NCBI GenBank assembly: GCA_018436925.1
Contig: JAHDKI010000008.1
Location: forward strand, 1 to 64,000
Origin: Syntrophaceae bacterium
GTDB taxonomy: Bacteria > Desulfobacterota > Syntrophia > Syntrophales > Smithellaceae
DNA: 64,000 bases
Direction of reading: 5' to 3'
In this document: positions 54,443 through 55,288 of the stretch, in pieces
Layout of the letters: each line of letters starts with the position of its first letter
How positions within the stretch are numbered: the first letter of the stretch is position 1
Program-made: the position numbers and the translations under genes
Notes under the pieces: model-generated
What the model saw: only the letters and a program-made list of their open reading frames with translations
What the model was told of the DNA's origin: nothing
Databases searched by the model: none

Positions 54443-55288
54443 TTAATTCGATCTCACAATATTGCGAAGCCTCTGTCGTCCCGCCTCCGAAAGACCAAGA
54501 GAGGCAAGATCCATTTCCAGCTCCGCCAATGTGCCGATGCCGTTGACATAACCATTCACCCTTGCTGCCGCCGTGGAGGCCACGAACTGATTGTCATCCG
54601 GATAAAAGGAACTAAATTCCTGCATCAGCTCTTTTTGGGACCGCAAACCGTACTTCTGATGGTAGGCTTCGGCCGGGTAGAACGTTGAAGCCGGCACGAT
54701 TTCCGTGTAGATGGGCCCCTTGATTTTCATGGCCACCCTCTTGAAGGAGTCCATGGCTTCCTTCCTCTGCTTTTCGTCGTGATAGAAGATGAAGGCTGCG
54801 TACTGACGCGAATAAGAACGATCCCCCGGCGAATGATTGTTCCAGAAGATGTCCAGGAGCGTCTCATAGGAAACGCTTTTCGGATCGTATTCGATCCGGA
54901 TGGCTTCGCTGTGGTCTCCCAGCCGGGTATAGGTCGGATCCTTTGATGTTCCTCCTGTATAGCCGACCTGGGTACGGATAACACCTTTGACAAGCCCGAA
55001 CCGGGCGTCCGGACCCCAGAATCACCCCATGGCGAAGGTGGCTATCTGCGTTTCTGCCGGTGTGATAAGGTCTATCGGCGGCAAAGCACCGCCGGGCCGG
55101 GCCTCATGCTGCTGGGGCTGTTTCATGTTAATGCTTCCTTCCCGGGATATCGGGCACGTGGTCTTTCCCTCGGCCGTTGCGGTTAAGATCGGTACCCATA
55201 CCGCCGAGAAAACGAATGTTAGTAGGACAAGAAAAGACCATCTCCCCCCATCCCGGAAAATATTTCGATTTCTTGTTTTTTCAGTCAT
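54443..55288 (-). CDS. msrA: Exported peptide methionine-S-sulfoxide reductase, selenocysteine form (TGA = Sec89)
   Basis: A 281-residue minus-strand frame interrupted once by TGA (55022-55024). Before it: an N-terminal membrane/signal segment (WSFLVLLTFVFSAVWVPI), a linker and IATFAMG. After it: FWGPDARFGLVKGVIRTQVG, YTGGTSKDPTY, DHSEAIRIEYDP, the MsrA fold. The TGA is exactly the active-site Cys of GCFWG, so the enzyme reads GUFWG. A hairpin at SECIS distance follows. The MsrA part contains no resolving Cys, only Sec. Known Sec-MsrA proteins exist in some bacteria. It would repair oxidised methionine in the periplasm. A mutation to stop is the alternative, but everything else is intact. Confidence 0.9.
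54989..55009 (-). promoter_or_regulatory. Putative SECIS hairpin of msrA
   Basis: Starting 12 bases after the TGA: GAC-GCCCG, loop GTT, CGGGC, two bulged T, GTC. The loop G is about 21 nt from the TGA, and the loop GU resembles bacterial SECIS loops. Found by eye. Confidence 0.65.

Follow-up and report, generated by a model that had tools for sequence, protein, structure and literature searches.

The window analysed here, the whole 64,000-nucleotide stretch at positions 1 to 64,000 of contig JAHDKI010000008.1 (GCA_018436925.1, Syntrophaceae bacterium), carries a selenocysteine (Sec) MsrA gene whose lineage, widespread in Desulfobacterota and Planctomycetota, appears to make two products per gene, an exported and a cytosolic one, that would protect both envelope and cytoplasm. 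Based on sequence comparison, we put the probability of this reading at roughly 0.6. We hold with high confidence that the window gene itself encodes a functional selenoprotein MsrA of the C. oremlandii type (1-Cys/1-Sec, with a helical domain), which is predicted to be exported and most likely has a cytosolic form as well. The features of the gene are collected in Table 1; all coordinates are positions of the window.

Table 1. Features of the Sec-MsrA gene in the window.
Feature	Position	Strand	Details and basis
Sec-MsrA coding sequence	54443..55288	-	281 residues, U at 89; translation, Pfam, PDB match
TGA, very probably read as selenocysteine; catalytic residue	55022..55024	-	translation and orthologue comparison
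MsrA catalytic domain, residues 83-220	54629..55042	-	Pfam match
Helical domain at the C-terminus, like that of C. oremlandii MsrA; residues 221-276	54461..54628	-	PF20939 below cut-off; CoMsrA alignment
Upstream start codon ATG of the predicted exported precursor	55286..55288	-	weak Shine-Dalgarno, -2.4 kcal/mol
Hydrophobic core, predicted signal peptide, residues 18-35	55184..55237	-	hydropathy 2.57 over 14 residues
Putative cleavage site of signal peptidase, after ATA (residue 39)		-	judged by eye
SECIS stem-loop GAC-GCCCG-GTT-CGGGC-TT-GTC	54989..55009	-	codon constraint, conserved inner pairs, folding
Internal Shine-Dalgarno AAGGAAG	55134..55140	-	7 nt upstream of the internal ATG
Internal start codon ATG (Met55), proposed cytosolic form	55124..55126	-	position conserved in most orthologues

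The gene and its protein

The initial annotation described the frame from 55288 to 54443 as a single MsrA protein broken only by the TGA at 55022-55024, and translation confirmed this, with U as residue 89 of 281. When Cys was put at U89, the protein matched Pfam PMSR (PF01625) at 2.1e-42 (145 bits, cut-off 23.7), the catalytic motif GUFWG lying within the domain. Standard gene calling does split the gene, as had been expected: the sole downstream ORF in the list has 103 aa and begins at an inner ATG. The best solved relatives in PDB were those of Clostridium (Alkaliphilus) oremlandii MsrA (CoMsrA; 4LWJ, 4U66, 7C13; PMC4479559, PMC4333827), aligned by phmmer over residues 79-276 with an E-value of 2e-56. 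The alignment reaches CoMsrA residue 203 and thus includes the helical domain, while the match to PF20939 (19.7 bits) stays under the cut-off of 23.7.

CoMsrA is a native Sec protein of the 1-Cys type, which has no resolving Cys and carries a C-terminal helical domain (PMC4479559). The window protein matches it in every feature that can be tested on sequence: Sec at the catalytic position (GUFWG), a C-terminal helical domain and no resolving Cys, with zero Cys after U89, as had been annotated. The missing resolving Cys was, however, taken to be unusual for a Sec-MsrA; since the characterised CoMsrA is itself of the 1-Cys type (PMC4479559), it is the rule for this kind of enzyme and no oddity. 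The novelty of the protein was overstated as well. According to the relevant passages of two reviews (PMC13188914; PMC9312934), bacterial Sec-MsrAs with the motif GUFWG/H and, like that of the window, with UGA at the catalytic Cys are on current lists of bacterial selenoproteins. The selenoprotein itself belongs to a known family, and what is new is its N-terminus. Whereas CoMsrA has almost no N-terminal extension and aligns from its residue 6, so that it has no room for a signal, in the window protein the domain is preceded by about 80 residues, which hold a predicted signal peptide and a proposed internal start. The same passages of the two reviews (PMC13188914, PMC9312934) make no mention of export or alternative starts of Sec-MsrA.

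A candidate resolving Cys was seen 66 residues past U/C (NPC, shortly before RQY) in most Planctomycetota Sec-MsrAs (L092-L110) and in the Cys form L135; it is lacking in the window protein and in most Desulfobacterota forms.

Reading of UGA 89

We consider it next to certain that the TGA of the window MsrA encodes selenocysteine, as initially annotated, because the Sec machinery is present, the TGA is kept in orthologues, the codons of the downstream stem-loop are constrained and the stem is altered in a Cys orthologue. The sel genes and the close orthologues had both been named as checks. The genome (3.52 Mb, estimated to be 100% complete) was found to contain selA, selB, selD and tRNA-Sec (anticodon TCA; UCA), with selB on the same contig as the Sec-MsrA gene. 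Its selD (L018) has an in-frame TGA too, so SelD is probably a selenoprotein.

The in-frame UGA aligns with the catalytic Cys of homologues. A search of 395 Desulfobacterota genomes gave Sec-MsrA and ordinary MsrA matches in two clearly separate classes: an in-frame TGA was present in 28/28 of the best matches (E < 1e-46, that of the window included), being kept in all 27 sampled orthologues, and in none of the ordinary MsrAs (E > 1e-37) among the matches listed. In a search of 343 genomes of Planctomycetota, the phylum of one relative, 37/38 matches had the TGA and one was without it.

An interrupted frame could also mark a pseudogene or a sequencing error, with the TGA as a mere nonsense mutation in the gene of a Cys MsrA, and the genome does hold, where a contig ends, an incomplete MsrA-MsrB fusion of the ordinary kind. 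Against this stand the 27 other Desulfobacterota and 37 Planctomycetota genes that carry a TGA at this very position, the intact domain, the presence of the Sec machinery and the constraint on the SECIS codons; moreover, a 99% identical MAG retains the TGA, which disfavors a sequencing error. The explanation is exceedingly improbable, and we regard it as already refuted by the sequence comparison.

In one Sec-MsrA (L039, genome G363) a second TGA replaces the active-site Trp (GUFU), which may be a mutation, an error or a second Sec.

Stem-loop downstream of the TGA

The stem-loop that starts 12 nt past the TGA had been proposed to fit a bacterial SECIS, and codon constraint was found exactly there. 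We aligned 28 Sec genes and compared the codon choice in 190 columns with each gene's own usage. Synonymous z values at codons +6, +7, +8 and +9 were 16.7, 20.4, 6.3 and 15.7, as compared with a mean of 0.8 over the 190 columns, which places the stem-loop codons NCC-CRG-TTY-GGG within the five most constrained synonymous sites of the gene; the sole comparable site outside the stem-loop was a Ser at +62 (z 11.6). Codon +6 was only TCC or GCC, codon +7 was CGG in 22/22 cases of Arg and CAG in 6/6 of Gln, and codon +9 was GGG in 27/28 genes. Codons +6 to +9 together make the stem-loop CCCRGUUYGGG, the three inner pairs of which are kept in 38, 40 and 41 of 41 non-redundant genes. In the Planctomycetota Cys orthologue L135 the codons are CGT and GGC, and all that is left of the stem is two inner pairs and the one that closes the loop. 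As the synonymous constraint sits at exactly the stem-loop codons, a working SECIS is supported by these comparisons.

Folding of the single sequence was dropped as proof of the SECIS, since it was not significant, and the codon test was used instead. In the 49-nt RNA another hairpin was the energy minimum (z -0.49). This competing hairpin uses nucleotides that would lie under the decoding ribosome, and no codon constraint is seen on its 5′ side. When the first ~12 nt were masked as if by the ribosome, the SECIS stem became the minimum, with pair probabilities of 0.7-0.8. The Rfam scan of the window gave one tRNA and nothing else.

Predicted export signals

The protein was initially annotated as exported. 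The signal is present: the N-terminus opens with basic residues, followed by a long hydrophobic segment and an A-x-A site. Yet export alone probably gives an incomplete picture, since both here and in most relatives the signal peptide is followed by a stronger internal Shine-Dalgarno/ATG. For the N-terminus the window gene was compared with 47 relatives, calling export on hydropathy (1.8 or more) and motifs. A hydrophobic N-terminal segment was found in 36/48 orthologues vs. 26% of neighbouring ORFs. Most orthologues in the two phyla thus seem to bear export signals, and these are of diverse predicted types: by eye, we recognized twin-arginine motifs in L021, L023, L028, L035 and L037, lipobox-like ends in L030, L032, L036, L092 and L102 among others, and also signals of the plain type. 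The Cys-MsrAs of Desulfobacterota are also often exported-looking (30/42).

Proposed internal start site

In most orthologues an in-frame ATG lies between the signal and the catalytic domain, usually 31-36 codons before U, and is preceded by an AAGGAG-like sequence. A candidate internal in-frame start with a Shine-Dalgarno after the signal peptide, the feature that would define dual localisation by internal initiation, is conserved. With a duplex energy of -5 kcal/mol or better taken as the threshold, which like the search window was set after inspection of the sequences, such an in-frame SD-ATG was counted in 30/46 genes with enough upstream sequence; the other two frames gave 0 and 1, and about a third of the orthologues are without the site. 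The background in neighbouring ORFs was 27/349 (8%). In 200 codon permutations a mean of 8.4 genes had an SD-ATG (maximum 14), and in 200 synonymous resamplings the mean was 18.4 of 46 (maximum 26). The observed 30 exceeds both maxima, so that there is an excess of both the ATG and the codon choice. Among exported-looking Cys-MsrAs an SD-ATG follows the hydrophobic segment in 2/30, their linker being shorter with less room for a site, vs. 21/29 exported-looking Sec-MsrAs once relatives more than 70% identical had been taken out (Fisher p 1.4e-7; 8e-6 for Desulfobacterota and 2e-5 for Planctomycetota), although the thinned sequences are still related. The genes behind the profile of Shine-Dalgarno spacing had been selected for their good scores.

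It is conceivable, if rather unlikely, that the protein is exported only and that the internal SD-ATG is no start, the AAGGAG-like stretch reflecting chance in Lys/Glu-rich linkers or slowing of the ribosome. Lys-Glu pairs readily give AAGGAG, synonymous resampling alone reaches 18/46, and orthologues without the internal site do exist (L021, L035, L037, L044-L047). The observed count, however, lies above anything obtained in either type of randomization, the off-frame ATGs and the exported Cys-MsrAs hardly show the site, and a pausing site would need no ATG at start-codon spacing.

We think it improbable, and more so than export alone, that the enzyme is cytosolic only, with the internal ATG as the true start and the upstream frame translated rarely or not at all. 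This would agree with the near absence of an N-terminal extension in the characterised C. oremlandii enzyme and with the strength of the internal Shine-Dalgarno, which in the window is -6.5 as compared with -2.4 upstream; the order is the same in L025, L030, L032, L036 and L092. The upstream frame is nevertheless open and holds a complete predicted signal peptide, and drift would have destroyed the hydrophobic segments of diverse sequence that 36/48 orthologues have kept, which disfavors this explanation. Furthermore, L021 and L037 are without an internal start and must therefore use the upstream one.

The most likely reading, held with moderate confidence, is that a second, cytosolic form is made from the internal Shine-Dalgarno/ATG beside the exported precursor. 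At UGA 89, SelB and tRNA-Sec very probably insert Sec with the help of the hairpin that follows directly. Translation from the first start would give the exported precursor, and translation from the internal Shine-Dalgarno/ATG after the signal peptide the shorter cytosolic enzyme, placing one selenium enzyme in two compartments. By analogy to C. oremlandii MsrA, Sec may reduce MetSO and become a selenenic acid, to be resolved by an external thiol either directly or via a diselenide dimer.

For Neisseria PilB, a secreted form and a cytoplasmic form from an internal AUG have been reported, as cited in a passage of PMC2907840. PilB resembles the window gene, for which two such products are proposed, in being an Msr gene, but it encodes a Cys enzyme, a Trx-MsrA-MsrB fusion, and neither contains Sec nor is of the CoMsrA type. 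Porphyromonas gingivalis HBP35, a protein unrelated to that of the window, likewise has a signal peptide, and Met-to-Ala mutants showed that it also comes in shorter cytoplasmic versions begun at internal Met codons (PMC2907840). Our literature search, which covered open-licence papers, found no two-form Sec-MsrA.

If the dual start is true, gene callers miss such a gene twice, by halting at the TGA and by picking one of two starts. It would also be a conserved, cross-phylum case of one bacterial gene product sent to two compartments by alternative initiation, in which one costly selenium enzyme guards both cytoplasm and envelope.

Electron donors, other Msr genes and distribution

Glutaredoxin is normally cytosolic, and this counts against an exported enzyme, as the C. 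oremlandii MsrA uses glutaredoxin. CoMsrA was shown to be reducible by glutaredoxin but not by thioredoxin, and it can dimerise through its catalytic residue (PMC4479559). If the dual start is true, one must also ask how a one-Sec enzyme is reduced beyond the cytoplasm. The genome itself encodes two glutaredoxin-domain proteins with signal peptides (L087, L089), the N-terminal part of which we take to be DUF4124-like. They are possible extracytoplasmic reductants and candidates for this species only. An exported glutaredoxin as a conserved partner was rejected, as full-length relatives were confined to about a dozen of the 395 genomes, hardly any of them with Sec-MsrA. The family NCBIfam NF041383 (Trx_VPGUxxT_two) was likewise rejected as a fused partner: no genome was over the cut-off, and many matches were to the MsrA-like half. 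The second half of this model matches the N-terminal region of MsrA, and its members may be Trx-MsrA fusions.

Of seven further genomes sampled within the bacterium's family none has the Sec form, though this form is scattered through the phylum. This pattern suggests loss or transfer, between which, as regards the two phyla, the Sec-MsrA tree with its few strong branches is too weak to decide.

At the end of contig C20 the genome carries part of an ordinary MsrA-MsrB fusion (L086), and thus the Sec-MsrA is not its only Msr. A fixed operon was dismissed, since no single gene accompanies Sec-MsrA everywhere. An MsrB gene adjoins Sec-MsrA on the same strand in 10/28 Desulfobacterota genomes, not including the window, and the one MsrB N-terminus examined has a TAT-like signal.
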